Assembly: GCF_004216695.1 (NCBI RefSeq)
Contig: NZ_SGXC01000001.1
Location: 2,790,001 to 2,854,000, forward strand
Source: Pigmentiphaga kullae
GTDB lineage: Bacteria > Pseudomonadota > Gammaproteobacteria > Burkholderiales > Burkholderiaceae_B
Length of the DNA: 64,000 nt
Reading direction: 5' to 3'
Shown here: in pieces, positions 19,420-38,133 of the stretch
How the letters are laid out: every line of letters begins with the position of its first letter
Numbering within the stretch: the first letter of the stretch is position 1
Program-made: the position numbers and the translations under genes
Notes under the pieces: model-generated
Told to the model about the DNA's origin: nothing
Database searches by the model: none
The model's input: the letters and a program-made list of their open reading frames with translations, nothing else

Positions 19420-19423
19420 GCGG

Positions 19424-19440: not shown

Positions 19441-19502
19441 TCGCAACCCCTCGACCGCTCGGTTCCCACCGGGCAGGTCCCCATTATCAAGGAGACAGAA
19501 AA

Positions 19503-20516: not shown

Positions 20517-20639
20517 CCTGGTATCGACGAAGCCAGTCCCGAATAAGTGTCAGTCGTTTTTCGTATTGGCGTCCAATTTGCGCCGAGCGTAAGGTTCCCA
20601 GTCAGCGTTCCCATAAAACGACTAGACAACGGAGCCTTC

Positions 20640-23059: not shown

Positions 23060-23064
23060 TGGAA
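23050..23064. promoter_or_regulatory. IclR-type operator (site D), overlapping the amidase stop codon
   Basis: TTCCATCTAGTGGAA, a perfect-arm TTCCA-N5-TGGAA site whose centre contains the amidase TAG stop. The surrounding 28 nt (23045-23072) match site B at 25 of 28 positions. TTGTCC (23073-23078) and TATTCT (23096-23101) are separated by 17 nt and make a plausible promoter for the Bug gene at 23189; TATTCT starts exactly 46 nt after the operator start. Confidence 0.65.
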
Positions 23065-23188
23065 GTGATGTGTTGTCCCTCTCCAGCGTCGGGCATATTC
23101 TCGACGCAAGGCTGCGCCTGATGTGCGCACCGCCACAGTAGCCCGTCAAGAGGCTCGCGATTCGAGAAACAGCCATTCGGAGACTCCC

Positions 23189-24205
23189 GTGTTCAACCTT
23201 GCACGCGCTGCGTCCGCGCAGCGTTCAACCCCTTTCGGATTCAAGCCTCTAGCCCGTCTGACGCTTGTCGGCGTGCTTGCCGTGGGAGCATTGCCAGCCA
23301 GCGCCCTGGACGCCTATCCATCGCGTCCAATCAGGGTGCTGGTCGGCTTTCCCGCTGGCGGCACCAATGACGTGGTGACCAGACTGGTCACGAACGCGAT
23401 CGAAAAGAAGACCGGTTGGCACTTCGTTGTCGAGAATCGCACGGGCGCGGGAAGCAACGTGGCCATGGAAGCTCTTGCGGCCGCGGCGCCGGATGGCTAT
23501 ACGATTCTGGTCAATACCCCGGGTGTGGTCATCAATCCCAGTCTTTACAGCAAGGTCCGATACCAATGGGATAAGTTCGAACCCATCGGCCTGATCGGCG
23601 AGGCGCCTCTGGTGTTGCTTGCCAATCCCAAGCTTCCGGTCCACGACATCGCCGGGTTGCAGGCGCACGCGAAGACGCAGCCCGACACGCTCAAGTTCGC
23701 AAGTTCGGGGAACGGCAGTTCATCGCACCTGGCCATGGATCTGCTTCGCTCCATGAGCAATCTGAATTATCTGCACGTGCCCTATCGGGGCAGTGGGCAG
23801 GCGATGGCCGACACGATGGCCGGCTTGACCGATTTGACCATGCAACCGATTACCAACGGTCTGGAGCCGATTCGCTCCGGGCGGTTGAAGGCGCTGGCCC
23901 AGACGGGGCAGAGCCGTGCCGCCGTGCTGCGCGATGTTCCCACGATGGCGGAGAGCGGCGTGCGCAACTATGCGGTGTCGACCTGGTATGTGGCGCTTGC
24001 CCCGGAAAAGACGCCCAAGGTCGTGACCAGCAGATTGCAGGCGGCCCTGGACAATGCGCTGCGGACTCCCGAGTTGCAGGCCCAGCTTGAACAAGTCGGC
24101 GTCCAGGCGCTGTTCGGAGGGAGCGCGGAGGCGTCCAGGCTGATGCATCAGGAATACGCGAAATGGTCCAAGCTCATTTCCGCGATCGGCACGCGCGTGG
24201 ACTGA
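23189..24205 (+). CDS. Bug-family (TctC) periplasmic solute-binding protein (GTG start)
   Basis: A 338-residue receptor. I choose the GTG at 23189 (CGGAGA about 7 nt upstream); it gives a long n-region and signal peptide ending near GALPASALDAYP (about 44). The frame is open upstream to 23123. The mature domain has YPSRPIRVLVGFPAGGTND, VVENRTGAGSNVAME and APDGYTILVNTPGVVINPS. It begins a plus-strand run with an LVIVD propeller protein, a CobW GTPase, an alpha/beta hydrolase and an IclR gene, and is probably driven from the promoter at operator D. Confidence 0.87.
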   Translation: MFNLARAASAQRSTPFGFKPLARLTLVGVLAVGALPASALDAYPSRPIRVLVGFPAGGTNDVVTRLVTNAIEKKTGWHFVVENRTGAGSNVAMEALAAAAPDGYTILVNTPGVVINPSLYSKVRYQWDKFEPIGLIGEAPLVLLANPKLPVHDIAGLQAHAKTQPDTLKFASSGNGSSSHLAMDLLRSMSNLNYLHVPYRGSGQAMADTMAGLTDLTMQPITNGLEPIRSGRLKALAQTGQSRAAVLRDVPTMAESGVRNYAVSTWYVALAPEKTPKVVTSRLQAALDNALRTPELQAQLEQVGVQALFGGSAEASRLMHQEYAKWSKLISAIGTRVD

Positions 24206-24241
24206 TCGCCGCGCCATTCTTCATCTTTTCAGAATTCCGCA

Positions 24242-25492
24242 ATGGTCACTAGTTTCCAGGGTCAAAGGCCGTATTCCGGCCGTGTGATGTCGCACAACAT
24301 GAAGTTGCTCTCTCATCATGAGCTCGAGGGCTTCGGTGGTCTGGGCGAGGGTATTGCCATCCAGTTGGCGGACGACGGGAGACGGATACTGTGGATGGCT
24401 CACGAAGCCGCTCCGAAGGATTTCTCGGGCGTGGACGTCAGCGATCCGCGAAACCCGCGCTTGATCGTTCAGACGGAATTGCCGCATATGAAGGTGCGCG
24501 CGAATTCGCTCGACGTCGTCGGCAATCTGATGGTGGTGGCGCGTCAGGTCAAGGAAGCCGGCCTGAAGCCCGCGGGTTTCGACGTGTTCGACATCAGCAA
24601 GCCGGAGGCTCCCCGCCTGCTTTCGCATTTCGATTGTTCGGGACCGTGGTCCCGTGGCGTGCATGCGGTATGGTTCGTTGATGGCAAGACCGTGCACATG
24701 GCTTCGGGGGCGCCCGACTTCCAGCCTCGCAATCCGAAGGACGATCAGTTCTATCGGATCGTGGACGTGTCCGATCCGACGAAGCCCCGGGAAGTCGGCC
24801 GATGGTGGTACCCGGGGACCCGGGAAGGCGACGACGCGCCCTCGCCGGGGAGATTGCCCGCGCTTTTTGACAACGGATTCCGCGCGCACAACACCAATGT
24901 CTTTCCGCAGCGTCCGGACCGTGCATACGTCGGGTATATCGACGGCGGCGCAATTGTGTTGGATATTTCCGATCTGTCGGATATTCGTTTGGTATCGCAT
25001 TGGAACCACTCGCCGCCGTTCAATGGCTTCACGCATACCGTGCTGCCGTTGTTCGACCGCGATCTGTGGGTCGTCACCGACGAGGCGGTGAAGAACGACG
25101 CGACGGACTGGCCGAAGCTGGTGTGGATGGTAGACGCGCGCCTGGAGAGCAATCCAGTTCCCATCTCGACCTTTCCCGCACCGCCTTACGAGACGTTCGC
25201 CAAACGAGGCGGCTTCTCGGGAGCCCACAATCTGCACGAGAATCTGCCGCTTCCGTGCTCATTCCAGTCGCAGACGCATCTTGTCGGTACCTTTTTCAAC
25301 GCCGGGGTCAGGGTCTACGATGCCACCAACCCCTACCAGGTGGAGGAAGTCGCGTATTTCGTTCCGGCGACGCCGCCTCTGGCGCCCAGGGGCGCGATCC
25401 AGCTCAATGATGTATATGTGGACGAACGGCGGGTGATCTACACGGTTGACCGCTACAACGGCGGCCTTTACATCCTGGAAGCGAATTTCTGA
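24242..25492 (+). CDS. LVIVD-repeat beta-propeller protein
   Basis: A 416-residue protein with no signal peptide. Repeated strands of the type GVDVSDPRNPRLI, GFDVFDISKPEAPRLL, YRIVDVSDPTKPREV and AIVLDISDLSDIRLV are LVIVD repeats, which build a beta-propeller. Histidines recur at blade starts: RGVHAVWF, FRAHNTNVF, GFTHTVLPL and SGAHNLHENLP, spaced as in metal-centred propellers such as the SBP56 group. This suggests a metalloenzyme, but no reaction is known for this subgroup. A CobW metallochaperone gene begins 4 nt after its stop, strengthening the metal idea. An alternative start is the ATG at 24287. Confidence 0.75.
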   Translation: MVTSFQGQRPYSGRVMSHNMKLLSHHELEGFGGLGEGIAIQLADDGRRILWMAHEAAPKDFSGVDVSDPRNPRLIVQTELPHMKVRANSLDVVGNLMVVARQVKEAGLKPAGFDVFDISKPEAPRLLSHFDCSGPWSRGVHAVWFVDGKTVHMASGAPDFQPRNPKDDQFYRIVDVSDPTKPREVGRWWYPGTREGDDAPSPGRLPALFDNGFRAHNTNVFPQRPDRAYVGYIDGGAIVLDISDLSDIRLVSHWNHSPPFNGFTHTVLPLFDRDLWVVTDEAVKNDATDWPKLVWMVDARLESNPVPISTFPAPPYETFAKRGGFSGAHNLHENLPLPCSFQSQTHLVGTFFNAGVRVYDATNPYQVEEVAYFVPATPPLAPRGAIQLNDVYVDERRVIYTVDRYNGGLYILEANF

Positions 25493-25496
25493 TCCC

Positions 25497-26570
25497 ATGG
25501 CGACGACCGATCACGATCCGCTGGCGGGAAAAATCCCCATCACCTTGATCACCGGCTCGCTCGGGGCAGGCAAGACTACGCTGGTCCGGCATCTTCTTTC
25601 GCATCCGGACACGGGGAGAGCGGCGGTCGTCATCAACGAGATAGGGGAAATAGGTATCGACGACGATCTGGTCCGCGCGTCGTCCGAGAGCGTGAGTTTG
25701 ATGGCCAATGGCTGCCTTTGTTGCGCCGTGCGCACCGATTTGCAGGAGACGCTTCGAGAATTGATCGGAGACCGGCGCGCAGGGGCGATTCCGGATTTCG
25801 ATCGCGTGATCGTGGAGACGACGGGATTGGCCGATCCGGGGCCCGTGATACAGACGCTCATCACCGACTCCATGTTGAACGCGCGCTATCGCCTCGATGG
25901 TGTGGTGACGCTGGTCGATGCGGTCAATGCATTCGACCAGCTCGCTTCGTCGCCCGAAACCGAGCGTCAGATTGCCCTTGCCGACAGGATCTTCATCACG
26001 AAGAAGGATCTCTCCGATCCGGCTTCCTTGGCCAGTTTGACGCCAATGATCCGCGCGATCAACGCACAAGCCCGAATTCGCTTCTGCAACATGGGGCAGA
26101 TTCATCCCTCCGATCTGACCGGCATCGGCCTGGACAGCGCTCGGGTGGGCGAGCGTCCGCAGCAATTCCTGCGAGATCTTGGCTTCGATCCGGAGCGGGA
26201 TGCCGAAGCCGAGGCCGAGGCCCCTTATCTTGGCCATCGCTTGGTCGGCCGGCACGATCCCCTTGTCAAGACGTTGTCTGTCCGCTTCGAGCAACCGTTC
26301 TCCTGGCCCGCCTTTTCCGCGGCGATGGAAATGCTCATTGGCCTGCGCGGGAAGGATCTGCTCCGGGTCAAGGGAATCGTCAACGTCGAAGGTAGCCCGG
26401 TCGTGGTTCAGGGGGTCGGTCACATATTCCACGACCCTGTCACGCTGGACCGCTGGCCGGGCGCGGATACCACGTCGCGTATCGTTTTCATCGCGCGGGG
26501 CATGGATATCGGATCTCTCAGGGGCGTCTTCGAGGCCGCCCGAAATCTGGGTTTCGGCCACGCCTTCTGA
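25497..26570 (+). CDS. CobW/COG0523 family GTPase (putative metallochaperone)
   Basis: A 357-residue COG0523 G3E GTPase. It has Walker A TGSLGAGKTTLV (19-30), the metal-binding CxCC motif in NGCLCCAVRTD (71-81; Cys73, 75, 76), the Walker B-like VIVETTGLADPGPV (about 104-117), the guanine-specificity region ITKKDL (about 164-169), and the C-terminal CobW domain with LLRVKGIVNVEG. These proteins deliver metal, often Zn or Co, to client enzymes using GTP. It lies 4 nt downstream of the LVIVD propeller gene, a likely client, and 33 nt upstream of a hydrolase. No Zur-like site was recognised. Confidence 0.9.
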   Translation: MATTDHDPLAGKIPITLITGSLGAGKTTLVRHLLSHPDTGRAAVVINEIGEIGIDDDLVRASSESVSLMANGCLCCAVRTDLQETLRELIGDRRAGAIPDFDRVIVETTGLADPGPVIQTLITDSMLNARYRLDGVVTLVDAVNAFDQLASSPETERQIALADRIFITKKDLSDPASLASLTPMIRAINAQARIRFCNMGQIHPSDLTGIGLDSARVGERPQQFLRDLGFDPERDAEAEAEAPYLGHRLVGRHDPLVKTLSVRFEQPFSWPAFSAAMEMLIGLRGKDLLRVKGIVNVEGSPVVVQGVGHIFHDPVTLDRWPGADTTSRIVFIARGMDIGSLRGVFEAARNLGFGHAF

Positions 26571-26603
26571 TCGGGCGCGGATGGATTGAGAGTATTACTT
26601 CCA

Positions 26604-27413
26604 ATGGAAATCATGAGCAAACTCGAGCGGGCAGGAGCCCCCACCATCCACTACGCCATCGATGGCGAACGGGGGCCTTGGCTGATCCTTTCGCATTCGC
26701 TTGGCTGTGACGTTTCGATGTGGGATCCGCAGATGCCGGCATTGACTCAATGCTATAGGGTGCTGCGATACGACACCCGCGGGCATGGAGCCAGCATGGC
26801 GGGGCAGGCGCCGTACACACTGGACCAGTTGGCCGACGATGCCGCCGATCTCATGGATCACCTGGGTATCGGAAAGGCCGCCTGGATCGGATTTTCGATG
26901 GGGGGAATGATCGGCCAGACATTCGCGCTCAAGTACCCGGAGCGCGTGCAGGCGCTTGTATTGGCGGATACCACGAGCCAACACGACGCCACGCCGCAAG
27001 CGGTCTGGGACGAGCGTATCCGCGTCGCTCGCGAGCAAGGCGTACAAGCTCTCGTGCAACCCGCGATCGGACGCTGGTTCACCCAGCGCTTCCGCGACGA
27101 CAATCCTGGCGTCGTGGCCGAGGTGGCGGCGACGATCGGTGCTACTTCGGTTGAGGGTTGGACTGGCTGCTGCGCAGCCATTGCGACCGTGCATACGACG
27201 GAGTTGCTTCCCCGGATTCAATGTCCCGTGCTCGTGATCGTCGGGGAGCACGATATCGGTACACCGCTTGCCGCTTCGCTTGAAATGCACAGGAACCTTC
27301 CGAGTTCGACGCTTGTCGTGATCGCGGATGCCGCGCACATGACCTGCATAGAGCAGCCCGGACGATTCAACCGCGCCTTGCGCATGTTTCTCGACGCATG
27401 CGCATCTCGGTAG
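26604..27413 (+). CDS. Alpha/beta hydrolase (3-oxoadipate enol-lactonase-like)
   Basis: A 269-residue alpha/beta hydrolase close to PcaD/CatD-type enol-lactonases: ILSHSLGCDVSMWDPQM (about 28-44), YDTRGHGAS (about 57-65), nucleophile elbow IGFSMGGMIGQTFA (about 94-107), acid in VIVGEHDIGTPL, and histidine in ADAAHMTCIEQP near the C-terminus. Activity on a lactone or ester is likely, but no pca or cat genes are adjacent, so a 3-oxoadipate role is not established. The ATG at 26604 is used; the ATG at 26613 is the alternative. It follows the CobW gene closely and precedes an IclR gene. Confidence 0.82.
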   Translation: MEIMSKLERAGAPTIHYAIDGERGPWLILSHSLGCDVSMWDPQMPALTQCYRVLRYDTRGHGASMAGQAPYTLDQLADDAADLMDHLGIGKAAWIGFSMGGMIGQTFALKYPERVQALVLADTTSQHDATPQAVWDERIRVAREQGVQALVQPAIGRWFTQRFRDDNPGVVAEVAATIGATSVEGWTGCCAAIATVHTTELLPRIQCPVLVIVGEHDIGTPLAASLEMHRNLPSSTLVVIADAAHMTCIEQPGRFNRALRMFLDACASR

Positions 27414-27521
27414 CCGCGGCCGGATTAGCGACGCAAGGCGTGCCGGGGGTATTGCAAGGTCAGCCGGTGCCCGTCATGCTGTCTCTCTTGAAGGCCATTC
27501 GTGGCGACAGAGGAAACGGAT

Positions 27522-28304
27522 ATGCCGCGGCAGTCGATCGAGCGGACCGGAACACAGAGCATCGGCCGGGCCGCGGCAATGTTGAGAGTGGTGGCCGAGC
27601 ACAACTCGGCGGGGCTCAGGCTGGTGGAGTTGTCGGAACTGTTGTCGCTCGAGCGGCCGACGGTGCATCGTATTGCCAGGTCCCTGGTTGCGGAGGGACT
27701 GCTTTTTCAGGATGAGTCGCGCCGCTATCATCTCGGCCACGGAGCAGTCGCTCTGGGGTTGGCGGCATCGAAGACCTTCAACCTGCGTGAGATCACCCAG
27801 CCTATCCTTGAACGGATGGCGAGGGAAACAGGCGATACGTTCTACCTGAATCAGCGTATCGGTTCGGAGGCGGTGTGCCTTATCCGGACCGACGGCGCGT
27901 GTCCGATCAAGATTTATTCGGTTGGCGTAGGGGACCGCCGTCCCTTGGGGGTCGGGGCGGGCGGCCTGGCCATTCTCAGCGCGATGGGCGAAGCCGAACG
28001 GGAGTCCCTGCTCCTGTCGGTCCAATCGCAGCTCGGCAACTACAAAGGGCTGACGCTGAGTACCCTGCGCAGGTTCATCCGGAGGACACATGCCTTGGGC
28101 TATGCCTTGCACGATGTGCATGGCTTTGCAGGCATCCAGGCAATAGGCGTGGCGATCATCAGTCCGCGCTCCGGGCCCGTTGCCGCAGTCAGCGTGGCTT
28201 CCGTGGCAAGCTGTCTAACCATCAAGAGGACCCAGGAGCTCGTGGACCTTTTGCGTGAAAGCGCCAGGCAGATCGAACGCTTGACCGAGAACTACTATTG
28301 GTAG
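27522..28304 (+). CDS. IclR-family transcriptional regulator
   Basis: A 260-residue IclR regulator. The ATG at 27522 has GAGGAAA (27510-27516) upstream; an in-frame GTG at 27501 is less favoured. The winged HTH has QSIGRAAAMLRVVAEHNSAG and the recognition part LSLERPTVHRIARSLVAEG (about 41-59). The effector domain keeps IYSVGVGDRRPLGVGAGGLA and ALGYALHDVHGFAGIQAIGV, as in KdgR/IclR relatives. It ends the Bug - LVIVD - CobW - hydrolase run and is convergent with the thiolase gene. With the IclR at 9433, it is a candidate to bind the TTCCAyNNNGTGGAA sites. Confidence 0.9.
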   Translation: MPRQSIERTGTQSIGRAAAMLRVVAEHNSAGLRLVELSELLSLERPTVHRIARSLVAEGLLFQDESRRYHLGHGAVALGLAASKTFNLREITQPILERMARETGDTFYLNQRIGSEAVCLIRTDGACPIKIYSVGVGDRRPLGVGAGGLAILSAMGEAERESLLLSVQSQLGNYKGLTLSTLRRFIRRTHALGYALHDVHGFAGIQAIGVAIISPRSGPVAAVSVASVASCLTIKRTQELVDLLRESARQIERLTENYYW

Positions 28305-28310
28305 CGGCCA

Positions 28311-28332
28311 AGGGTTGACTGCCGCCAACCCT
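28311..28332. terminator. Bidirectional hairpin terminator
   Basis: AGGGTTG (28311-28317) and CAACCCT (28326-28332) with an 8-nt loop, followed on the plus strand by GTTTC. It occupies the 31-bp gap between the convergent IclR (stop 28304) and thiolase (stop at 28336) genes. Confidence 0.55.
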
Positions 28333-28335
28333 GTT

Positions 28336-29490
28336 TCAGAGCGAATCCCCGGTTCCCAGGATGACGGTCGTTCCAGCGGAATAGACAACGCCGTTGCCGT
28401 GCACGAGCGCCGTCTGACAGTCCTCGACCTGGGCCGGGCCGCGCTCTCCGCGCAACTGCCGTACCGCTTCGATCAATAGAAAGATGCCATACATTCCGGG
28501 ATGGCAGTAAGACAGGCCTCCGCCATTGGTGTTGATCTTGAGGGAGCTGTCCGTTCCTGTCGCTTGATCGACGAAGCATGGACCGCCTTCGCCTTTCGGG
28601 CAGAATCCCAGATCCTCCAGGAACATGATCGGGTTGATGGTAAAGGCGTCGTAAAGACCGAGTACGCCGATGTCGGACGGACCGAGGCCGGCCATTTCGA
28701 AGGCCTTCGGGCCGGAGAACGCGGCGGGCGTTACGGTCACATCCGGCATGCTCGAAATGGAGTGGTGGCTGAGGCACTCGCCCGAACCCAGGACGAAGAC
28801 GGGGGGCTTGGCCAATGTGCGGGCTCTGGCGGCGGATGTGACGATCAATGCGCCTCCTCCGTCCGTGACCAGGCATATGTCGCGGACGGTGAATGGATGG
28901 CTGACCATCTTCGCGTTCAATACGTCCTCTATCGTCAGCGGCTCCCTATGCCAGGCCTGCGGGTTCAACCCCGCCCAGCGGCGCGCCTCGACCGCGACCG
29001 CGGCGAGCTGCTCGCGCGTGGTCCCATAAAGGTGCATGTGGCGCGATGCCGACAGCGCGTAGGCGCTCGACGGAAGAAAGGGGCGATAGGGCGTCTCGTA
29101 GGGATTGCTTTCTCTGGGGCTGGCCTGGGCCCTGCCTACGGAGCGCTGAGTGCTTCCATAGGCAATCAGCGCCACGTTGCAAAGACCCGCCTCGATCGCG
29201 GCCTGAGCGCGTATCAGATGCGATTGGAACGAGGTTCCGCCGATGTGCGTTCCATCCTGGTATCGAGGCCGGATGCCGAGATATTCGCGCAGTTGGAGCG
29301 TGGGGTTGCGCATCTGGCTGGCTGCGCCGAACAGGCCGTCGATATCCCCGAGCTTCAACCCACAGTCGGCCAAGGCCCGGACCGTGGCCTGAGCCATCAG
29401 ATCCGCCGGACTCATTCCTTCCGCGACCTTTCCAAGATCGGATTCGGCGGCGCCGACAATCGCAATGCTGCCCCGTTGCAAGGCGCTCAT
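28336..29490 (-). CDS. Thiolase-like protein (Ltp2/SCP-2-thiolase type), no nucleophilic cysteine
   Basis: A 384-residue thiolase-fold protein. It opens IAIVGAAESDLGKVAEGMS and carries the signature GGTSFQSHLIRAQAAIEAG (about 82-100), but the position of the catalytic Cys in true thiolases is not occupied by Cys; the next Cys is in GLCNVALIAYG. The C-terminal HGNGVVYSAGTTVILG replaces the usual GHP motif region. This is the pattern of Ltp2/BbsB-like proteins that act with a DUF35 partner, for example as a retro-aldolase on hydroxyacyl-CoA in steroid side-chain degradation. Its ATG overlaps the stop of the DUF35 gene (ATGA), so a heteromeric complex is very likely. Substrate unknown. Confidence 0.85.
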   Translation of the reverse strand: MSALQRGSIAIVGAAESDLGKVAEGMSPADLMAQATVRALADCGLKLGDIDGLFGAASQMRNPTLQLREYLGIRPRYQDGTHIGGTSFQSHLIRAQAAIEAGLCNVALIAYGSTQRSVGRAQASPRESNPYETPYRPFLPSSAYALSASRHMHLYGTTREQLAAVAVEARRWAGLNPQAWHREPLTIEDVLNAKMVSHPFTVRDICLVTDGGGALIVTSAARARTLAKPPVFVLGSGECLSHHSISSMPDVTVTPAAFSGPKAFEMAGLGPSDIGVLGLYDAFTINPIMFLEDLGFCPKGEGGPCFVDQATGTDSSLKINTNGGGLSYCHPGMYGIFLLIEAVRQLRGERGPAQVEDCQTALVHGNGVVYSAGTTVILGTGDSL

Positions 29491-29996
29491 CGGACTTCCT
29501 CCAGTGGAAAGAAGACGGGAAGCGGCGCGGCGTGGCCGTCGATCTGCAGCATCCTGACCTTGACTCTCATGCCTATCTGCACGGCCAGAGGAGGAACGCC
29601 GTCGACCCGGCTCATCATGCGGAAACCTTCGTCCAGGTCGATGAGCGCCACGTTGTGAGATGCCTGTCCATCGCGGAAAACGACAGTCGATGCGTAGACC
29701 GTTCCCCGCCCGCCGCTGATTCTCCATTCGAGATCCGAGCCTGTCTCAGGGCCGGCGACCCTCGGGTAGAAAACCGGCTTTCCTGTGACTGTGCACACCT
29801 GGTAGGGAAGTTCGCCGTCCTTGCAGTGCCGGACGAATGTCGCGTAGGGAGACTCATCGAGTCGTGCCGCCGTGGGCAGCGAGGCGCCGTTCATTGCCAC
29901 GAGTGCGTATCTGCCGAAAAATCGGCCTTGTGTCTGCTGGCCGTTGTCGAGGGTGACGCCGCTTTCAGGGCGGAAGCTCGAGCGGATTTTTCTCAT
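29487..29996 (-). CDS. DUF35 (OB-fold, acyl-CoA-associated) protein with degenerate zinc ribbon
   Basis: A small OB-fold protein of the DUF35/COG1545 type. The family block starts near LDESPYATFVRHCKDGELPY and continues to an OB domain with YASTVVFRDG, VALIDLDEGFRMMSRV and the ending FFPLEEVR. The zinc ribbon normally has two CxxC pairs; here only one Cys remains (YQVCTVTGKPVFYPR) and the second pair is absent, so zinc is probably not bound. Start uncertain: ATG 29996 gives 169 residues, ATG 29894 gives a more typical 135, and ATG 30068 would overlap the upstream Bug gene. DUF35 proteins hold acyl-CoA substrates for a thiolase-like partner, here encoded immediately downstream with a 4-nt overlap. 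Confidence 0.75.
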   Translation of the reverse strand: MRKIRSSFRPESGVTLDNGQQTQGRFFGRYALVAMNGASLPTAARLDESPYATFVRHCKDGELPYQVCTVTGKPVFYPRVAGPETGSDLEWRISGGRGTVYASTVVFRDGQASHNVALIDLDEGFRMMSRVDGVPPLAVQIGMRVKVRMLQIDGHAAPLPVFFPLEEVR

Positions 29997-30025
29997 GTGT
30001 TCGAGTGTCGTCAGGTTTGTCGGGG

Positions 30026-31027
30026 TCAATCGGGCCGAATGCCCGCTGCATGGATCATCGAACGCCATTTCCCTATCTCGGTGATCAGGTAGCGAGAGGC
30101 TTCGTCGCGTGAATTTCCGATGGCTGTCAAGCCGTTCTCGCGCAGCGTCTTCTGAACATTGGGTTGCTGCAGGACTTGACGGCCAGCCTCGTTGATTTTT
30201 TCCACGATCTCGGCGGGCGTACCGGCGGGGGCGAAAAGCGCGTACCAGGTTCCGATGTCCGGCACGTCGATGCCTGTTTCACGCAAGGTTGGAACATCGG
30301 GTAGAACTGGCGAGCGTTCGGATGTCGTGACCGCCAGGGCGACCAGGGAGCCGTCCTTGATGTAGGGAAGAACGGGAATGGGGCTGACGCAGTAGAAGTG
30401 GACCCGGCCGCTGAGCAGATCCGTCGTCGGCTGGGACGCTCCTTTGTAAGGGACGTGCAGCATGGAGATGCCCGTCGCGTGCTTGATGCTTTCGACGGTG
30501 AGGTGTCCGGGGGCGCCGTTTCCCGAGGATGCGTACGAAAATTTGTTCGGATTTTCCCTGGCGGCCCTGACGAGCGATCGCATGTCCTTGATGCCCTGCG
30601 CCGCGGAGGTGACGCATACCAGGGGCGACGTTGCCAGGACGACCGCGGGGGTCAGGCTTTTTACCGAATCGTAGGGCAGCTTGCTCAGCAGGCTTGCGTT
30701 GATGGCGTGCGTCACGCCGCCTAGAAGAAGCGTGGAGCCGTTCGGCGCGGCACGCACGACGTAGTCCGTGCCGATGACTTGTCCCGCGCCCGGTCGATTG
30801 TCCACATAGAACGTCTGCTTGAATACCTCTCCCAGACCCTGCGCAATGACGCGGCCGAGCGTGTCGTTCGCGCCGCCTGCGGCATAGGGAACGACGATCC
30901 TCACCGCTTCGCTGGGATAGGTAGACGCATGGACATCAGGAATGACGACGGAGAGCGTGGCTAAGCAGGCCGCGAGCCGGAGGGTTGACTGCGCATGTTT
31001 ACTCCAAGTGTCTATCGTCTGTTTCAT
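30026..31027 (-). CDS. Bug-family (TctC) periplasmic solute-binding protein
   Basis: A 333-residue receptor; the ATG at 31027 gives a signal peptide of about 35 residues (LRLAACLATLSVVIPDVHAS). The frame is open much further upstream but without coding character. The mature domain has YPSEAVRIVVPYAAGGAND, VDNRPGAGQVIGTDY and APNGSTLLLGGVTHAINAS, where the usual PDGYTLL has become PNGSTLL. It heads the minus-strand unit Bug - DUF35 - thiolase and is divergent from the PrpD operon at 31288. Two IclR-type sites lie in the 260-bp gap. It probably binds the substrate of the divergent enzymes. Confidence 0.9.
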   Translation of the reverse strand: MKQTIDTWSKHAQSTLRLAACLATLSVVIPDVHASTYPSEAVRIVVPYAAGGANDTLGRVIAQGLGEVFKQTFYVDNRPGAGQVIGTDYVVRAAPNGSTLLLGGVTHAINASLLSKLPYDSVKSLTPAVVLATSPLVCVTSAAQGIKDMRSLVRAARENPNKFSYASSGNGAPGHLTVESIKHATGISMLHVPYKGASQPTTDLLSGRVHFYCVSPIPVLPYIKDGSLVALAVTTSERSPVLPDVPTLRETGIDVPDIGTWYALFAPAGTPAEIVEKINEAGRQVLQQPNVQKTLRENGLTAIGNSRDEASRYLITEIGKWRSMIHAAGIRPD

Positions 31028-31117
31028 GGTTGTCGTCTCCACGTATTGATCGAACGGGCCTGGCCGCCAGCCGTCGTATGCGAGAGGCGATTCTGATCGA
31101 ACAAGCTCATCCAAAAG

Positions 31118-31132
31118 TTCCACAATGTGGCC
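31118..31132. promoter_or_regulatory. IclR-type operator (site G)
   Basis: TTCCACAATGTGGCC, fitting TTCCA-N5-TGG with a perfect inner palindrome CCACA-A-TGTGG. It is about 98 bp upstream of the minus-strand Bug start at 31027 and 70 bp from site H. It shares the CCACAwTGTGG core with H, a subclass slightly different from A-D. Confidence 0.6.
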
Positions 31133-31187
31133 TGTCGGGGAATTCATTACTGGGGAAAACCAGGACTCGTTTTCGGTGTGAAAGAGC

Positions 31188-31202
31188 GTCCACATTGTGG
31201 AT
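31188..31202. promoter_or_regulatory. IclR-type operator (site H)
   Basis: GTCCACATTGTGGAT, containing the perfect palindrome TCCACA-T-TGTGGA (31189-31201). It lies about 93 bp upstream of the PrpD start at 31288. TATAGA (31223-31228) or TAGAAT (31225-31230) downstream could be a -10 element for the plus-strand operon. Confidence 0.6.
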
Positions 31203-31287
31203 AACGAACGCACTGTTGCGTCTATAGAATTCATTCCGCTGCGCGAATTGGCCGAGCGTTGTGCTCCAGGGCGCGAGAGGGGAATAC

Positions 31288-32691
31288 ATGAATCAAGAAG
31301 TAGACGCAGCGCTGGCGTCGCTGACCCGGGCGGTTGCCGACATCTCCTACGGAAGTCTCTCCCACTCCACCGTTCAAGCTTGTATATCCAGAATCGTGGA
31401 TGTCCTGGGGTGCGCAATGGCTGCCTGGCCAGAACCCATCTGCGGGGCAGCCAGGGCTCTGGCCAGACGGGCGCTTCCGGCCGAAGGCGGCGCCAGGATA
31501 CTCGGAACCCGCGACCATGCCTTGGCCGAACTGGCAGCCTTCGCCAACTGCATGGCCGCCAGATACATGGATGGCAACGATACGTATCTCGGGGGCGGCG
31601 GACATCCAAGCGACGTGGTGCCGGCGGTGCTTGCCGTCGCGGACGCCGAGCGCCGCACGGGACGCGAGGCGATTGCCGCCGTGGTGGCCGCCTATGAGGC
31701 CTATGAGACCATTTTTCAGCTGACTCAGACTCGGGAGACCGGTTGGGACCATACGCTCTATACGGCTGTCGGCAGCGCCGCCGGCGCCGCGAAGTTGCTG
31801 GGGCTCGACAGGCAGAGCACCGCGCAGGCTCTGTCCATTGCGATGACGGCGAATCACGGGATGATCGTGACCCGCCGCGGGGAACTGTCGTCGTGGAAGG
31901 GGAGCGCCGCGCCTTATGCCGCCCGGGACGGGGTGTTCTGCGCCTATCTGGCGCGGGCGGGTTTCGAAGGGCCGGCACGGCCGTTCTCGGGAGCCGCCGG
32001 TATGCAGGATCACTTCGGCGTCCGGGACTGGCCTCGCGGTGAGCGCGGCGAGGGTGCAGGCCACGCCGTGGAGCGTTCCCATCTCAAGCCCTATCTGTGC
32101 TACTACCACGCGCAGACCGCCATCGAACTGGCCACGCGGCTCGCGGCGAACGTCCGTCACGATGAAATCGAGAAGGTCGTCGTCCACGTCTACGAGGCCA
32201 AGGGCCTTTCCGAACGGGATCCCGGGAAATGGCGGCCGGCCACGCGAGCATCGGCCGATCACAGCATTCCCTACATCGTTTCGGCCGTTCTGGTCGATGG
32301 CGTTTTCACCGACGCGGCGTTTGATCGGGAACGGCTGGTCGACACGCGCATTCATGCCGTGGCCGACAAACTGGAGCTTCGCGCAGATCCTGCGTTTTCC
32401 CTGGGGTTTCCGGAAACGTCCCCTTGCCGCATCGAGATCGTTACGAGGGACGGACGGACCTTGGCCGAGGAAGCGCGGTATCCCCGTGGCCACCTGCTGA
32501 ATCCGCTGGCCCCGGATGAGATCCATGCCAAGTTTCTATCGCTGGCTACCCGGACCTTGCCGGAGCGACAGGCCCGAGAAGCGTTGGGGTTGCTGCTCGG
32601 TATCGACCAGTTGCCGTCCGTCGACACCATTTTCGATGCGCTGGTGGTGGAAGAGCCCGCGATACGTCCGCTGTCCGAGGAGACGCCATGA
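31288..32691 (+). CDS. MmgE/PrpD family protein
   Basis: A 467-residue MmgE/PrpD protein; GAGAGGGGA precedes the ATG at 31288. Features in order: AARYMDGNDTYLGGGGHPSD, equivalent to the family DDT..HPG active-site loop (about 91-110), ETGWDHTLYTAVGSAAGAAK (about 150-169), a glycine-rich helix region with ELSSWKGSAAPYAARDGVF (about 200-218), and LKPYLCYYHAQTAIELATRL (about 266-285), where the His-containing loop is YYHAQ. It is somewhat longer than its paralogues. It heads an operon with an SMP-30 gene (ATGA overlap), the ligase/flavoprotein fusion and another PrpD. Probably a dehydratase of a di- or tricarboxylate or its CoA-free precursor. Confidence 0.87.
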   Translation: MNQEVDAALASLTRAVADISYGSLSHSTVQACISRIVDVLGCAMAAWPEPICGAARALARRALPAEGGARILGTRDHALAELAAFANCMAARYMDGNDTYLGGGGHPSDVVPAVLAVADAERRTGREAIAAVVAAYEAYETIFQLTQTRETGWDHTLYTAVGSAAGAAKLLGLDRQSTAQALSIAMTANHGMIVTRRGELSSWKGSAAPYAARDGVFCAYLARAGFEGPARPFSGAAGMQDHFGVRDWPRGERGEGAGHAVERSHLKPYLCYYHAQTAIELATRLAANVRHDEIEKVVVHVYEAKGLSERDPGKWRPATRASADHSIPYIVSAVLVDGVFTDAAFDRERLVDTRIHAVADKLELRADPAFSLGFPETSPCRIEIVTRDGRTLAEEARYPRGHLLNPLAPDEIHAKFLSLATRTLPERQAREALGLLLGIDQLPSVDTIFDALVVEEPAIRPLSEETP

Positions 32692-33596
32692 ATTGGGAAT
32701 TCGAGCGTTTGTACGGTCCCTGCGAGATCCCGCTTACCGAAGGACCGGTCTGGGACGGCGGGAAGCTGCTGTTCACGCACATCCGAGCAGGCCTCATCCT
32801 GAAGTACGAACCGGGAACGGGGAGCGTGGACATCTGGAGGTCGGGAACCAACCAGATCAATGGTCTGGCTTATGACACGAACGGCGCGCTTTTCGGCTGT
32901 TGTTCCGGGGGCCGCTCCATTGTGAAGCTGGCCGCAGACGGGAGCGCGCAGACTGATGTGATTACTTCCCTCGATGGGCGGCGCCTCAATACGCCCAATG
33001 ATCTCGCCATTGCCAGGGATGGGACCATCTGGTTCTCTGATCCCTGGAATCCAGCAGGGAATCTGCCTGATGGGGAGGTGGAGGAGCTTGGCCATATGTC
33101 GGTGCTCAGTGCCCGACCTCACGAGGATGGAATCTACCAGGTTCGCAGGGCTACGTTCGATACGACCAAACCGAACGGCGTGCTGCTGTCGGCCGACGAG
33201 CGGACCTTGTACGTCGCGGAGAGTCATTTCGAGCGTGGGCGCGTCCGAGAGCTGAGGGCATATCCGATTCTGGCGTCCGGGGCGCTGGGCGACTACGAGA
33301 CGCTGTTTACCTGGGGCGAAGACGACCGCGGCGTCCATCGGGGCATAGACGGAATGTGCCTGGACGAAGACGGGAACATTCTTGCCTGCGCGGGGTGGGC
33401 GCAGGCGGGGAGCGGTCCGATGATCTATGTCTTTTCACCCGAGGGGCGTGTTCTCGAGACGCATCGGGTTCCCGCTCAGATGCCGACGAATCTTTGTTTC
33501 GGCGGAGAAGACATGTGCACCTTGTTCGTGACCTCGATGCAGGGGCATCTATTCAAGGTCCGAACGAACCGGCGGGGTAGGTTGCCGCATGCATAA
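32688..33596 (+). CDS. SMP-30/gluconolactonase family protein
   Basis: A 302-residue SMP-30/gluconolactonase/LRE-type beta-propeller without a signal peptide. The divalent-metal ligands fit the family: Glu in PLTEGPVWDGGKLLFTH (about residue 18), Asn in LNTPNDLAIARDGTIWFSDP (about 106), and Asp in GIDGMCLDEDGNILACAG (about 221). Members open lactones of sugars or organic acids. The ATG overlaps the PrpD stop (ATGA) with GAGGAG upstream, so the two proteins are coupled. In this pathway it may hydrolyse a lactone to the hydroxy acid handled by PrpD or by the downstream ligase. No sugar genes are nearby, so gluconolactone is unlikely. Confidence 0.85.
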   Translation: MNWEFERLYGPCEIPLTEGPVWDGGKLLFTHIRAGLILKYEPGTGSVDIWRSGTNQINGLAYDTNGALFGCCSGGRSIVKLAADGSAQTDVITSLDGRRLNTPNDLAIARDGTIWFSDPWNPAGNLPDGEVEELGHMSVLSARPHEDGIYQVRRATFDTTKPNGVLLSADERTLYVAESHFERGRVRELRAYPILASGALGDYETLFTWGEDDRGVHRGIDGMCLDEDGNILACAGWAQAGSGPMIYVFSPEGRVLETHRVPAQMPTNLCFGGEDMCTLFVTSMQGHLFKVRTNRRGRLPHA

Positions 33597-33671
33597 CGAC
33601 CAGCGGCCATAGAGATGGTGGGGTGCGCTGCCGAGCATCCCCGGAAACAAGCCATGAAGCAGGAGCGAGGC

Positions 33672-36600
33672 ATGTTGCAAAGACGAGCACCGCTGGATGT
33701 CTTACGTCTGTACCCAGCGCACGATTACACGTTGTATGGTGCATTGAAGAGCCGGGAGTCCCGCCGCCAGGCGGAGCTTTTCCTGGAGTTTGAAGGAGTC
33801 GTGCATTCCCATGCCGGATTCCTGCGAACCGTCGACAGGCTCGCCCGTGGCTTGTTCGAGCGGGGGGTGCGAGATGGCGACCGGGTGGCGATCGTGGCCC
33901 GCAATCATGCGGCCCACGTCTTGCTGCTTTTTGCGTTGACCAGGATCAACGCAACGCTCGTTCCGTTGAACCCGGAGGCCGGCTTGGAAAGCCTGCGCTA
34001 CATGCTGGAAAAAAGCCGGGTTTCGGGGGCATTCGTCACCGCGGAAACCCTGCCGGCGGTGTCGGATGCCGTCCGTGGTCTTCAGGCCTGCCCATGGCTG
34101 GTCCGTATCGACGGGGCGGACGACGGCGGAGCGATGTGGCAGGCGCTCATGTCGGCGCGCGGGAACGGCGAGCTGCCCGTTCCCAGGTCGGATGCGACCT
34201 GCCTGATCATTTTTACTTCCGGAACCACGGGTTTTCCAAAAGGCGTCATGCATAGCCAGCGGAACTTCCTGCTTGCCGGCGAGGCGAACGTGGCGCGCTT
34301 GTGGCTGCAGCCCGAGGACAGAGTGCTGACCATTCTTCCGTTGTTTCATACCAATGCGCTGTTCTATTCATTGACGGGTGCGCTGGCGGCGGGCGCTGGC
34401 GTGCTGCTGCAGTCCAGGTTCTCGGCATCCCGTTTCTGGGATGTCGCGGCGGAATCCAGGGCGACGACAGTCAACGTCATCGAATCGGTGGGCCGCATCC
34501 TGCGAGCCCGCCCTCGCCACGAGTTTCGCGGGGATCACGTACTCGAGTCCGTGTACGGCGCGCGTGCCGACGTGCAGGAGTGCTTTCGCGTCGAGTTTGG
34601 CATTTCGCGGCTGGTGAGCGGGTTCGGCATGACGGAGATTCCGGGCGTCTGCTGCACGCCGTGGGTGGGACCCGATAAGACCGGATCCATGGGGCTGCTT
34701 GGCGAGCATCCCGATCCTGACGTGAAATGGGCAACGGCGCGTATCGTCGACGAACAGGGAAACGATGTTCCCGACGGTGTTCCAGGCGAGTTCTGGGTGA
34801 AGCATCCGGCGGTGATGCAGGGCTACTTCGACGAACCCGGGCAGACGCGCGAATCGTTCGAAGGGGAGTGGTTCAAGACGGGAGATCTCGTCAAGAGAGA
34901 TATCGACGGCTACTACTGGTTCGTGGGCCGCCGGAAGGATGTCATTCGCCGCAGAGGAGAGAACATCTCGGGGCAGGAGATCGACCGGGTGCTTGCTTCC
35001 CATCCCCTGGTCTACGAGGCGGCGGCGATTGCCGCGCCGTCGGAATGGGGAGAGGACGAGATTCTCGTATGCGTGGCCAAACGGCAAGGCGCCGAAGTCT
35101 CGGCATGGGATGTGCTGGACTGGTGCAGAGAGCGGCTTCCCGCGTTCAAGGTGCCGCGCTATATCTGGATGACCGACGAGCTTCCCTACACTCCCACGCA
35201 CAAGGTCGCGAAGCAGAAGCTGCGGGAGGATCTTGCCCGGATCATGGCGGCGGCCGTGGACGTCGAACGGGATGCTCCTGCTTCGTCCGCGCCGGAGCAA
35301 ACTTCGGGCGCCGGCCCGGTAGTCGTCGTCGGGAGCGGCATGGCCGGTATCGCAGCCGCGCTGGAGGCCCGCACATCCGGGGCGCAGGTCGTGCTTTTCG
35401 AGAAGTTCGAGCCAGCCGTCGCGGGGGGCAACACGCGTGTCTGTGGCGGCGCCTTTCTTGCGCCGTCCGGGCAGGGCGCCGATGCGGAAAAGGCGTTCGT
35501 GGAGTCCCTGGCCGAGTGCACGCATGGCGAGGGCAACGTTCAGCTTTTCGAAGTGCTTGCACGGCATGCGCTGCCATCTATTCGCTGGATCCAGGATCTC
35601 GGCGCCGAGTTCCTGCCCGCGTACCCGTGTTCTCCGCCCTATCGCTGCAGTGTGCATCCCTTGGCGCCGGGGCAGTTCGTTGGCATGCCAGCGCTGGTCT
35701 CCAGGTTGCACGCGGCCCTGGAAGCCGCCGGCGTGTCGGTGCGGTTCCAGACCGAGGTGTTGGAGATCATCGTGGACGATGGCGGCGCGGTCCGTGGGGT
35801 GGAGATCAGGGATGCCCAGGGGAAAAAACGACGCGAAAAGGCGAGCGCGGTCATCCTGGCGGGGGGCGGTTACGCGGGCAACAAGGCGTGGCTGAAGCAG
35901 TGGGTGGGGGAAGGGGCTGACGCCCTGATGGTGAGAGGCGTTGATACGGCTCAAGGAGAAGCGATCGACCTGGCTGCTCGCGCCGGTGCGAGCGTGGCTC
36001 GCATGGAAGGGCTCGCCTCCCTGCATGTGGCCGCCGTTTGTCCGGAGCTTCCTGGAGGCGGTAACCCGTCCAGGGCCATTCCCTATGCGATTGCGGTCAA
36101 TGCCAGGGGCGAGCGCTATGTGGACGAGTCAAAAGGCTATGTCGCGAACGGGAAGGCCGCCTTGCGGCAGCCGCAACAGCGGGTCTCGGTCATCGTGGAC
36201 AGCGCGATGCTGGAGCTGCCCGGCGTCGAGACCGCATTGAAGACCTATGGGAACATGGGGCTGCCAGTGGCGCGCGCCGACACCGTCGATGAGCTGGCCG
36301 TGCAGATAGGCGTGCAGCCCGCCGGACTCAAGGCGACTATTCAGCAGTTCAATGCCGCGATCGATGGCACGGCCGCCATGTCGGCGGAGCCGCCCAAGAC
36401 TGCGTGGGCGTGGCCCATCGCACACCCGCCGTTCTTCGCCTTCTCGCCTTTGCAGCCCGCGATCACCCTTACGTTCGGGGGGGTGGAAATCGATGTGTCC
36501 GCACGGGTGCGGAACAGGGACGGATCGTGCATCCAGGGCTTGTATGCGGCGGGCGAGATGGCCGGATGTCTGTTCCGCCATGACTACCTGGGAGGAGCCT

Positions 36601-36704
36601 CGTTGACCAACTGCCTGGTCATGGGCCGCATCGCCGGCAGAGAGGCTGCGAGCTACGCCGCGCGTTTGAACAGCAGTATCGGCCAATGGGCAAGGAAACC
36701 ATGA
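33672..36704 (+). CDS. Fusion protein: AMP-forming acyl-CoA ligase plus FAD-dependent fumarate-reductase/tricarballylate-dehydrogenase-like domain
   Basis: A 1010-residue two-enzyme fusion. Residues 1-515 are an ANL acyl-CoA ligase: TSGTTGFPKGVMHSQ (about 180-194), FKTGDLVKRDIDGYYWF and GRRKDVIRRRGENISGQE (about 400-437), and the C-terminal lysine region THKVAKQKLRED (about 510). A 35-residue Ala/Pro/Ser-rich linker follows. Residues about 548-1010 are an FAD-binding 2 dehydrogenase: VVVVGSGMAGIAAALEA, FEKFEPAVAGGNTRVCGGAF, a helical substrate cap, and the FAD-contacting end GGASLTNCLVMGRIAGREAA, most like TcuA/flavocytochrome c reductases. I prefer the ATG at 33672 (AGGAG 6 nt upstream). There is no frameshift between the halves. 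It lies between SMP-30 and PrpD genes; a thioester made by the first half could be oxidised by the second. Confidence 0.87.
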   Translation: MLQRRAPLDVLRLYPAHDYTLYGALKSRESRRQAELFLEFEGVVHSHAGFLRTVDRLARGLFERGVRDGDRVAIVARNHAAHVLLLFALTRINATLVPLNPEAGLESLRYMLEKSRVSGAFVTAETLPAVSDAVRGLQACPWLVRIDGADDGGAMWQALMSARGNGELPVPRSDATCLIIFTSGTTGFPKGVMHSQRNFLLAGEANVARLWLQPEDRVLTILPLFHTNALFYSLTGALAAGAGVLLQSRFSASRFWDVAAESRATTVNVIESVGRILRARPRHEFRGDHVLESVYGARADVQECFRVEFGISRLVSGFGMTEIPGVCCTPWVGPDKTGSMGLLGEHPDPDVKWATARIVDEQGNDVPDGVPGEFWVKHPAVMQGYFDEPGQTRESFEGEWFKTGDLVKRDIDGYYWFVGRRKDVIRRRGENISGQEIDRVLASHPLVYEAAAIAAPSEWGEDEILVCVAKRQGAEVSAWDVLDWCRERLPAFKVPRYIWMTDELPYTPTHKVAKQKLREDLARIMAAAVDVERDAPASSAPEQTSGAGPVVVVGSGMAGIAAALEARTSGAQVVLFEKFEPAVAGGNTRVCGGAFLAPSGQGADAEKAFVESLAECTHGEGNVQLFEVLARHALPSIRWIQDLGAEFLPAYPCSPPYRCSVHPLAPGQFVGMPALVSRLHAALEAAGVSVRFQTEVLEIIVDDGGAVRGVEIRDAQGKKRREKASAVILAGGGYAGNKAWLKQWVGEGADALMVRGVDTAQGEAIDLAARAGASVARMEGLASLHVAAVCPELPGGGNPSRAIPYAIAVNARGERYVDESKGYVANGKAALRQPQQRVSVIVDSAMLELPGVETALKTYGNMGLPVARADTVDELAVQIGVQPAGLKATIQQFNAAIDGTAAMSAEPPKTAWAWPIAHPPFFAFSPLQPAITLTFGGVEIDVSARVRNRDGSCIQGLYAAGEMAGCLFRHDYLGGASLTNCLVMGRIAGREAASYAARLNSSIGQWARKP

Positions 36705-38113
36705 CCACGACGAAAGAGAAGACCATGCCGCAGCTGACACAGCAGCTCGCCACGTTCATTGCATCGAAGAAGCCGGACGACCTGCCACCTCGTGTCATCG
36801 AGCGATCCAAGAAGATTCTTACGGATACTTCGGGTGTCATGCTCGCGGGGCTGGGCAGCGACTTGTGCGCGCCATTGTGGGCCTATGCCGAATCGGCCCG
36901 CTCGGCCGACGGCGTCGTCGTTCCAGGAACCGCCAGGCGCTATGGCGGCGAAATGGCGGCGTTCGTCTGCGGAACGTTGGCCGCCGCGCTCGACTTCGAT
37001 GATGTCGTCGCTATCATGCCCGGTCATCCGAGTGCGATCATTCTGGGCGCGGCGATTTGCGAGATGCAGCGGAGTCGTGTCACCGGACTGGACCTGGTGG
37101 CCGCGCATGCGGTCGGGATCGAGGTCGGAGGTCGTCTGGGGCAGGGCATCACCAAAGGCCACTATGACCGTGGGTTCCATGGAACCGGATCGCTGGGAGT
37201 TTTCTCGGGTGTGGCCACGGTCGCCAGCCTCCGGCGGCTGGACGAGGGGACGACGTGCGCGGCCCTGGGGATAGCTGCCTCGATGTCCAGCAGTATCCGG
37301 CGCAATTTCGGAACGATGACCAAGCCCGTGCACAGCGGATGGGCGGCAAGGAGTGCGATTGCCGCGGTCAACATGGCGGAGGCGGGGTTCTCCGCCGCAT
37401 CCGATGCCTTGGAAGGGAGCGCGGGTTTTTTCGAAGCATATGGGACGCCGGAGTCGGACCCGTCGTCGGTCGCGGGGACCTTGGCGGCCCCCTGGATCAT
37501 CGAAGAGCCGGGGGTGGGACTCAGAAAGTTCGCGTGCTACAACGCGCTTCAGCGGGGCATGTTCGCGGTCCTCGAGGTGCGAAGGCAGCTGGGTCTGGAT
37601 GGGTCTTCGCTGCGCGGCCTCACATGCCGGATGCCTCCAGGGGGGATGCAAAGCGCGGTCTTCCCGGAACCCCTGACGGGACTGCAGGGAAAATTCAGCC
37701 TGGAGTACGTGTTGGCGGCCGGCGTGCTGGATGGCGGCTACTCGTTGGGTACCTTCAGCGACGAAGCCGTGGCGCGCCCCGGGATCAAGGCCTTGCTTGG
37801 GCGCATCAGGGCCTGGGAGGACGAGGCGTGCGCCGATCCCGATCCGTTGGCCGAGGGCGGGGAGCTTCCCGGCGGCAAGGGCGTCGTCGAGGTGGAGGCC
37901 GAAGACGTTTCAGGCAAGCGGGCCGTCCATCGCATCACGATTCATCCCGGGCATCCGTCGCGGGAACTCTCATGGGGCGATCTGCGCGAGAAGTTCCTTG
38001 ACTGCACCGCGTACGGGGGGATCAGCCGGGAGGGGGCGGAAAGGTTGTTTGCCTTCCTTCGGCAACTGGAGCTGTCCGACGATATGGGGTCCTTCTGGAG
38101 GGACGTGCGCTAA
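36701..38113 (+). CDS. MmgE/PrpD family protein
   Basis: A 470-residue MmgE/PrpD protein; ATG 36701 overlaps the fusion-gene stop (ATGA) with AAGGAAA upstream. A start at 36725 (MPQLTQ) is also possible. Features: AALDFDDVVAIMPGHPSAI (about 102-120), the canonical FDD..HPG active-site loop, FHGTGSLGVFSGVATVASL (about 162-180), VHSGWAARSAIAAVNMAEAG (about 208-227) and RKFACYNALQRGMFAVLEV, where the family His loop reads CYNALQR and the usual His is absent. It ends the PrpD - SMP-30 - fusion - PrpD operon; a hairpin follows. Two PrpD paralogues in one operon suggests two different hydration or dehydration steps. Confidence 0.87.
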   Translation: MTTTKEKTMPQLTQQLATFIASKKPDDLPPRVIERSKKILTDTSGVMLAGLGSDLCAPLWAYAESARSADGVVVPGTARRYGGEMAAFVCGTLAAALDFDDVVAIMPGHPSAIILGAAICEMQRSRVTGLDLVAAHAVGIEVGGRLGQGITKGHYDRGFHGTGSLGVFSGVATVASLRRLDEGTTCAALGIAASMSSSIRRNFGTMTKPVHSGWAARSAIAAVNMAEAGFSAASDALEGSAGFFEAYGTPESDPSSVAGTLAAPWIIEEPGVGLRKFACYNALQRGMFAVLEVRRQLGLDGSSLRGLTCRMPPGGMQSAVFPEPLTGLQGKFSLEYVLAAGVLDGGYSLGTFSDEAVARPGIKALLGRIRAWEDEACADPDPLAEGGELPGGKGVVEVEAEDVSGKRAVHRITIHPGHPSRELSWGDLREKFLDCTAYGGISREGAERLFAFLRQLELSDDMGSFWRDVR

Positions 38114-38133
38114 GGCGCGCGTGATGCGCGCCT
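38113..38133. terminator. Hairpin between convergent genes
   Basis: AGGCGCGC (38113-38120) and GCGCGCCT (38126-38133) with a 5-nt loop, in the 27-bp gap between the convergent PrpD and VOC dioxygenase genes. There is no T-run. It coincides with the right edge of the lower-GC region. Confidence 0.5.

Follow-up and report, generated by a model that had tools for sequence, protein, structure and literature searches.

Why would one gene encode both an acyl-coenzyme A (acyl-CoA) ligase and a flavoprotein dehydrogenase, and what reaction would such an enzyme serve? The question is raised by a locus of Pigmentiphaga kullae (assembly GCF_004216695.1), in a stretch of 64,000 nucleotides of contig NZ_SGXC01000001.1 (positions 2,790,001 to 2,854,000, forward strand; hereafter the window), where a single open frame consists of a complete ANL ligase, a linker of about 15 residues and a complete TcuA-like flavoprotein. 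We tentatively read its product as an enzyme with two active sites, encoded on a catabolic island that was acquired horizontally and serves to use a citrate- or succinate-like polycarboxylate, in which the flavin half would oxidise the free acid and the ligase half would then activate it for C-C cleavage. Of the readings weighed below this is the one we prefer, at somewhat less than an even chance. The fusion is built as follows.

33672..36704, + strand: fusion of an ANL acyl-CoA ligase and an FAD_binding_2 flavoprotein, 1010 amino acids; single open frame, Pfam domains of both, same in the assembly
33672..35270, + strand: ligase half, residues 1-533, with AMP-binding and AMP-binding_C domains and the catalytic Lys511 by alignment; 44-55% identical to stand-alone ligases that end here
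35271..35315, + strand: Ala/Pro/Ser-rich linker, about residues 534-548, between the natural ends of both stand-alone families
35316..36701, + strand: flavoprotein half, TcuA-like FAD_binding_2, residues 549-1010 (Pfam 550-977); 43-45% identical to a stand-alone flavoprotein in genome G1325

The frame opens with an ATG at 33672, preceded by AGGAG, and closes 1010 codons later with a TGA at 36702-36704; an in-frame ATG further upstream, at 33615, is the start chosen by the open reading frame (ORF) tool and yields 1029 residues. Pfam places AMP-binding at residues 37-386 (1.9e-63), AMP-binding_C at 436-511 and FAD_binding_2 at 550-977 (4.9e-46). An initial annotation, made from the letters alone, had described an uninterrupted frame with ligase and flavin motifs on either side of an Ala/Pro/Ser-rich linker, and all of this held, the motifs being TSGTTGFPKG (182-191), GENISGQE (429-436), THKVAK (509-514) and GSGMAG (554-559). 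In alignments, stand-alone ligase relatives end at about residue 533 of the fusion, and the closest stand-alone flavoproteins start some 10-15 residues ahead of their GxGxxG motif. Because the relatives end and begin at the edges of the linker, both domains are complete and joined end to end.

Could two genes only appear to be one, through a stop codon lost to a sequencing or assembly error, or through a restart that yields a separate flavoprotein? The initial annotation had pointed to the region of residue 530 as the place where a true stop or start might lie. No stop is present near this residue, and the nearest in-frame ATG, codon 525, has a GGAGG 14 nucleotides upstream, a poor spacing; since this is still a ribosome-binding sequence, a second, shorter product starting at Met525 is possible. 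The solitary occurrence of the fusion in the genomes searched also speaks for an artefact. Against it, Met525 lies inside the C-terminal tail of the ligase itself, the roughly 15 codons of the linker contain no stop and have a third-position GC content (GC3) that matches the rest of the gene, and the gene sits in an operon with ATGA overlaps. Furthermore, the frame in the genome assembly is 100% identical to that of the window and lies on a contig of 2.96 Mb, the assembly being 99.9% complete. We consider an artefact, or two separate proteins, extremely improbable.

To judge how rare the arrangement is, we relied on searches of overlapping genome sets, in most of which scoring was limited to the few best candidates of each genome. 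With the whole protein (E up to 1e-150 for the family), the fusion was found in 1 of 11 genomes of the genus and 1 of 268 of the family, each time its own genome, in line with the rarity initially claimed. Some match was present in 23 of the 268 family genomes, and every one besides the fusion itself covered the ligase half only. The flavin half, own genome included, was matched in 1/268 genomes of the family (1e-70), 6/399 of the order (1e-55), 1/274 of the class (1e-60) and 1/398 of the phylum (1e-60); in the family of genome G552, a set that does not contain the own genome, it was matched in 6/74 (1e-60). No second fused frame appeared among the flavin-half matches of the order, class, phylum and G552-family samples: the window's own frame was the only one above 600 codons, and the others, in the order sample and the G552 family, were open frames of 486-564 codons. 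A fusion whose flavin half has diverged further would escape these searches. None of 3212 plasmid records with a match covered 80% of the fusion in one place (for 8 records, among the pieces listed). Scans of a genome-contig collection returned two weak ligase matches (23-26% identity) and those of viral contigs none, with exact degenerate peptide patterns that detect close relatives only and with near records of the own genome possibly left out. Neighbouring ligase and flavoprotein genes in Terrarubrum, Azospirillum and Rhodococcus records were tried as split versions and rejected, because their identity to the two halves is 26-30% and the surrounding genes suggest other pathways. A literature search gave no described enzyme of this architecture among the matches listed. 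The families are thus known, and the arrangement appears to be new and a singleton.

A singleton with a short linker that lacks conserved relatives might also be a tether without channelling, with two halves that catalyse non-consecutive steps and a fusion that does no more than fix their ratio or arose as a neutral accident in one lineage. The motifs kept in both halves and the tight operon make the gene look used, and we hold this explanation to be unlikely.

What would the ligase half act on? Pfam scores above cut-off (215 against 29.9 bits for AMP-binding, 47.5 against 24.5 for AMP-binding_C) place it in the ANL superfamily, and alignment to solved ligases locates both the P-loop TSGTTGxPKG at 182-191 and the catalytic Lys511; the cut-off of the NCBIfam ligase equivalog PRK06155 is not reached (365.5 of 722 bits). 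Identity to the ligase half is 47-55% for 23 stand-alone family loci, a paralogue from the own genome included, and 51% and 44-45% for aligned plasmid relatives. A citryl-CoA-lyase-like gene lies within 1.5 kb of the ligase in 15 of these 23 loci (in one, L030, as a partial match), and near none of five other ligases inspected in the own genome. The Pfam domain of this neighbour, in the two that were scanned, is the citrate synthase C-terminal domain, and its closest solved structure is citryl-CoA lyase 6hxp (3.5e-39). In Cupriavidus necator pBB2 the same pair is annotated as citryl-CoA lyase and AMP-binding protein, and in Rhizobium leguminosarum a ligase relative lies near a ChsH2-type OB-fold gene and near a thiolase-fold gene that has 40% identity with that of the window. 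Judging by these citryl-CoA-lyase-like and thiolase-fold/OB-fold neighbours, the substrates of the ligase group are probably citrate-like acids. On citryl-CoA-linked ligases of this kind the literature matches listed held nothing relevant; PMC12186527 was set aside, its citryl-CoA remark concerning a lipopeptide pathway.

The pairing recurs at loci L046, L052, L053 and L045, where an ANL ligase accompanies a short citryl-CoA-lyase-like protein that consists solely of the citrate synthase C-domain, and TctC receptors are encoded close by. Such a pair is possibly a route for citrate-like acids that forms adenosine monophosphate (AMP), and offers a lead to an AMP-forming conversion of these acids to acetyl-CoA.

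In which direction would the flavin half work? The TcuA/fumarate-reductase-like fold proposed at the outset is what we find, and the closest solved relatives are flavocytochrome c fumarate reductases and urocanate reductase, which would suit an electron-consuming fumarate- or itaconate-reductase-like enzyme. However, counting on the alignment, the positions of Arg402, His504 and Arg544 of Fcc3 hold Tyr823, Thr932 and Tyr972; in Fcc3, Arg402 is the catalytic arginine and His504 and Arg544 bind the carboxylate, and structure titles name Arg402 and His365 as mutated residues. Fcc3 His505 aligns with Leu933, and His365 is matched by His785. His785, Tyr823, Thr932 and Tyr972 are all common to the fusion and Methylobacterium TcuA, whose identity to the flavin half is 30-34%. 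Pfam matched no cytochrome domain on the fusion, and the cut-off of flavocytochrome c TIGR01813 is not reached (200.5 of 285.45 bits); nor are those of the TcuA models PRK08274 (289.9 of 369) and TIGR02485 (187.1 of 372.55). A predicted structure of the flavin half alone (predicted local distance difference test, pLDDT, 65, from 7 sequences) gave Foldseek matches with a template modelling (TM) score of about 0.5 and a root-mean-square deviation of about 10 Å, and confirms the fold only.

The neighbourhoods of stand-alone relatives bear on the same point. The best of these, in G1325, is 45% identical and has the signatures QFVGMPA, GLASLHVAAV and YVANGKA in common with the flavin half. Among 12 loci of flavin-half relatives taken with wider flanks, PrpD genes lie near 7 and genes for the beta subunit of the electron-transferring flavoprotein (ETF) near 6; four of the 12 (L093-L096) are more distant, come from three genomes and have none of the neighbours sought. 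The ETF-beta genes support an oxidising direction, while leaving open whether a free acid or a thioester is oxidised. With the substituted residues, these neighbours make a reductase a quite improbable reading.

At L048, L049 and L097-L100 the TcuA-like flavoproteins directly adjoin ETF-beta genes, with PrpD genes in 5 of the 6, and are candidate ETF-linked polycarboxylate dehydrogenases. At L092 (7308-17022) a stand-alone flavin-half relative lies beside PrpD, a second TcuA-like flavoprotein, a biotin-carrier protein, a biotin carboxylase and a carboxylase-domain gene. A second cluster of the own genome, L047, holds aconitase, PrpD, amidohydrolases, a TcuA-like flavoprotein and a gene of the 2-oxoadipate dioxygenase/decarboxylase family.

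Which half acts first? The initial annotation had the ligase make a thioester and pass it to the flavin site, which is a rival to our preferred order: a dicarboxylate would first be converted to its CoA thioester by the ligase half, and the flavin half would serve as an unusually folded acyl-CoA dehydrogenase that desaturates this thioester before hydration and cleavage. The N-terminal position of the ligase and C-terminal position of the flavin domain suit this order, as do the ETF-beta neighbours and a methylsuccinate cluster containing a CoA-transferase, an FAD (flavin adenine dinucleotide) acyl-CoA dehydrogenase, a hydratase and a lyase (PMC12290011). That dehydrogenase, though, is described there as a canonical acyl-CoA dehydrogenase, of a different fold. 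Moreover, the relatives of the two halves stand alone elsewhere: a relative of this ligase occurs in 0 of the 12 flavin-half-relative loci, and a type-III CoA-transferase was matched, with two queries, in 1 of the 12, so that transfer from ligase to flavin site finds no support here. The MmgE/PrpD isomerase characterised in the methylsuccinate cluster is active with free acids, CoA esters being no substrates (PMC12290011), which also speaks against a thioester made first. TcuA itself takes a free tricarboxylate as its substrate. Oxidation before activation is favoured because of this free-acid substrate of TcuA and because the ligase is absent beside flavin-half relatives; the thioester-first order is doubtful, and is kept alive by the ETF neighbours.

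The genes around the fusion supply the remaining steps of the proposed route.

14302..38125, no strand: insertion carrying the operon, 23.8 kb, absent at this site in G006, G008 and G009
27501..28304, + strand: IclR-family regulator
28336..29493, - strand: SCP2-thiolase-fold protein, candidate retro-aldolase, with a YDAF motif (ORF tool start 29727)
29487..30068, - strand: OB-fold/DUF35 (ChsH2-like) protein, partner of the thiolase-fold gene
30026..31027, - strand: TctC-type tricarboxylate transporter receptor, divergent from the operon
31261..32691, + strand: MmgE/PrpD family protein a (PrpD-a), nearest to 2-methylcitrate dehydratase; ATGA overlap with the next gene
32688..33596, + strand: SMP-30/gluconolactonase family protein (Pfam); a 60% identical homologue lies beside a PrpD gene in G121
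36701..38113, + strand: MmgE/PrpD family protein b (PrpD-b), with Bacillus subtilis IRG1 and IDS-epimerase (iminodisuccinate epimerase) as nearest structures; a possible start overlaps the fusion's stop (ATGA), the ORF tool start being 36686

PrpD-a, the SMP-30 lactonase, the fusion and PrpD-b are codirectional, and ATGA overlaps occur at 32688-32691 and at 36701-36704. The operon with two MmgE/PrpD genes agrees with the initial annotation; its wording of 'PrpD dehydratases' stands for the family and is too specific for the function, given the nearest relatives of the two proteins. In the three genus-mates compared (G006, G008 and G009) the site is empty: 25-36 bases separate the two flanks, whose identities are 82-83% and 93-95%. 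A search of 14000-39200 for direct repeats found none with the settings chosen, and base composition was rejected as proof of an island, the left flank having a similar GC3. The insertion also carries several TctC receptors, an amidase, a CobW-family protein and alpha/beta hydrolases. The 16S matches listed from a plasmid collection are mostly to Burkholderiales (best 92.0%, a Caballeronia replicon), which suggests this order for the host. Elsewhere in the window, in GC-rich DNA, two open frames of 3083 codons (54729-63980, - strand) and 2091 codons (57459-63734, + strand) overlap on opposite strands, and likely at most one of them is a gene.

The route we infer, from substrate class and order of steps to channelling and the cleavage enzyme, would then run as follows. 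Uptake would be aided by the tricarboxylate-transporter receptor, and the free acid would be shaped by the PrpD-family enzymes and the lactonase; we place this shaping on the free acid because the MmgE/PrpD isomerase of the comparable cluster accepts methylsuccinate and not its CoA ester (PMC12290011). The TcuA-like flavin half would take two hydrogens off the free acid, passing electrons to ETF or the quinone pool, and the ligase half would make the CoA thioester. After hydration, the thiolase-fold/DUF35 pair may split a tertiary beta-hydroxyacyl-CoA, much as citryl-CoA lyase does with citryl-CoA. This cleavage is the weakest link of the proposed pathway. Among solved structures the thiolase-fold protein comes closest to 4u4e ('Thiolase'), 9myr and the Ltp2-ChsH2 aldolase 6ok1, and the OB-fold protein to 6htj and to the B chains of 9myr and 6ok1. 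The catalytic tyrosine of Ltp2 and Sal lies within a YDHF or YDCY motif (PMC12329534). The DUF35 partner gene is present here; because YDAF replaces YD(H/C)(F/Y), aldolase activity of the thiolase-fold protein is a guess.

PrpD-b homologues were inspected in six loci (L067-L072). In G114 and G112 one (48-49% identical) accompanies an IclR regulator, two type-III CoA-transferases, an enoyl-CoA hydratase and a thiolase-fold gene. G121 has one with CoA-transferases and a hydratase, no thiolase-fold match being found at that locus; a second PrpD-b homologue, at a distance of about 10 kb, adjoins the SMP-30 homologue. The loci of G257, G256 and Sinorhizobium RAC02 gave no thiolase match, G257 having a distant ligase (27%). 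The module of IclR regulator, PrpD-b homologue, two CaiB-type CoA-transferases and enoyl-CoA hydratase is common to L067, L068 and L069; L067 and L069 add the thiolase-fold gene, and in these two, the loci checked for further members, PrpF is seen in both and an MR_MLE enzyme in L067.

These loci and others also hold evidence that weighs against our preferred reading. The flavin half is matched in 0 of the 6 PrpD-b homologue loci and the thiolase in 2; CoA-transferases occur in 3 of the 5 tested (RAC02 being outside the five) and seem to be responsible for CoA activation in the three fuller modules. No citryl-CoA-lyase homologue was matched in the window, so that the most telling neighbour of the ligase group is missing beside the fusion; 8 of the 23 ligase relatives lack such a gene within 1.5 kb, and the 15 that have one are not independent, 8 coming from one genus (by genus, 4 of 6). 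The thiolase motif is neither the YDHF of Ltp2 nor the YDCY of Sal. No ETF gene was found among the Pfam-scanned genes of the island, and ETF coupling is typical of acyl-CoA dehydrogenases and would favour the thioester order. The flavoprotein loci of G403, with CoA-transferases, and of G1325, with a biotin carboxylase set, place other CoA or carboxylation chemistry nearby. Finally, the flavin-then-ligase order is drawn from the neighbours of relatives only 30-45% identical in sequence.

A bolder version of the preferred reading, which we regard as rather unlikely, is that one chain oxidises and activates in an undescribed polycarboxylate pathway, that intermediates pass between the flavin and ligase sites, and that a thiolase-fold/DUF35 aldolase, of a type described for steroid side chains, cleaves a small citrate-like CoA thioester. 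Fusions link steps, and this gene connects a TcuA-like dehydrogenase of the kind found in PrpD clusters with a ligase of the citryl-CoA-lyase-linked group. It gives concrete substrates to try for three groups that are poorly characterised: these ligases, the ETF-linked flavoproteins and the PrpD proteins near B. subtilis 'IRG1', whose function is called as yet undetermined in PMC12290011.

Comparison with known systems sets the fusion apart from each of them. It has the fold of TcuA, the four residues named above and nearby tricarboxylate transport receptors in common with that enzyme; in contrast, its flavin half is only 30-34% identical and below the NCBIfam cut-offs, is fused to a ligase and has no TcuB partner among the scanned genes around it. 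The PRK06155/CaiC-like ATP-dependent acyl-CoA ligases from the same bacterial family are 47-55% identical over the whole ligase, with the same ends and the same catalytic motifs, but are separate proteins, whereas the fusion adds a flavin domain and lacks the citryl-CoA-lyase neighbour. The itaconate/methylsuccinate cluster of PMC12290011 resembles the island in CoA activation, FAD dehydrogenation, an MmgE/PrpD enzyme and C-C cleavage of a branched dicarboxylate. It differs in that activation is by a CoA-transferase, dehydrogenation by a canonical acyl-CoA dehydrogenase and cleavage by a citramalyl-CoA lyase, each a protein of its own. The steroid aldolases Ltp2-ChsH2 and Sal-Shy (PMC12329534) have the same type of thiolase-fold/DUF35 pair, which here is divergent from the fusion and carries YDAF rather than YDHF or YDCY, with no steroid-specific family among the scanned island genes.

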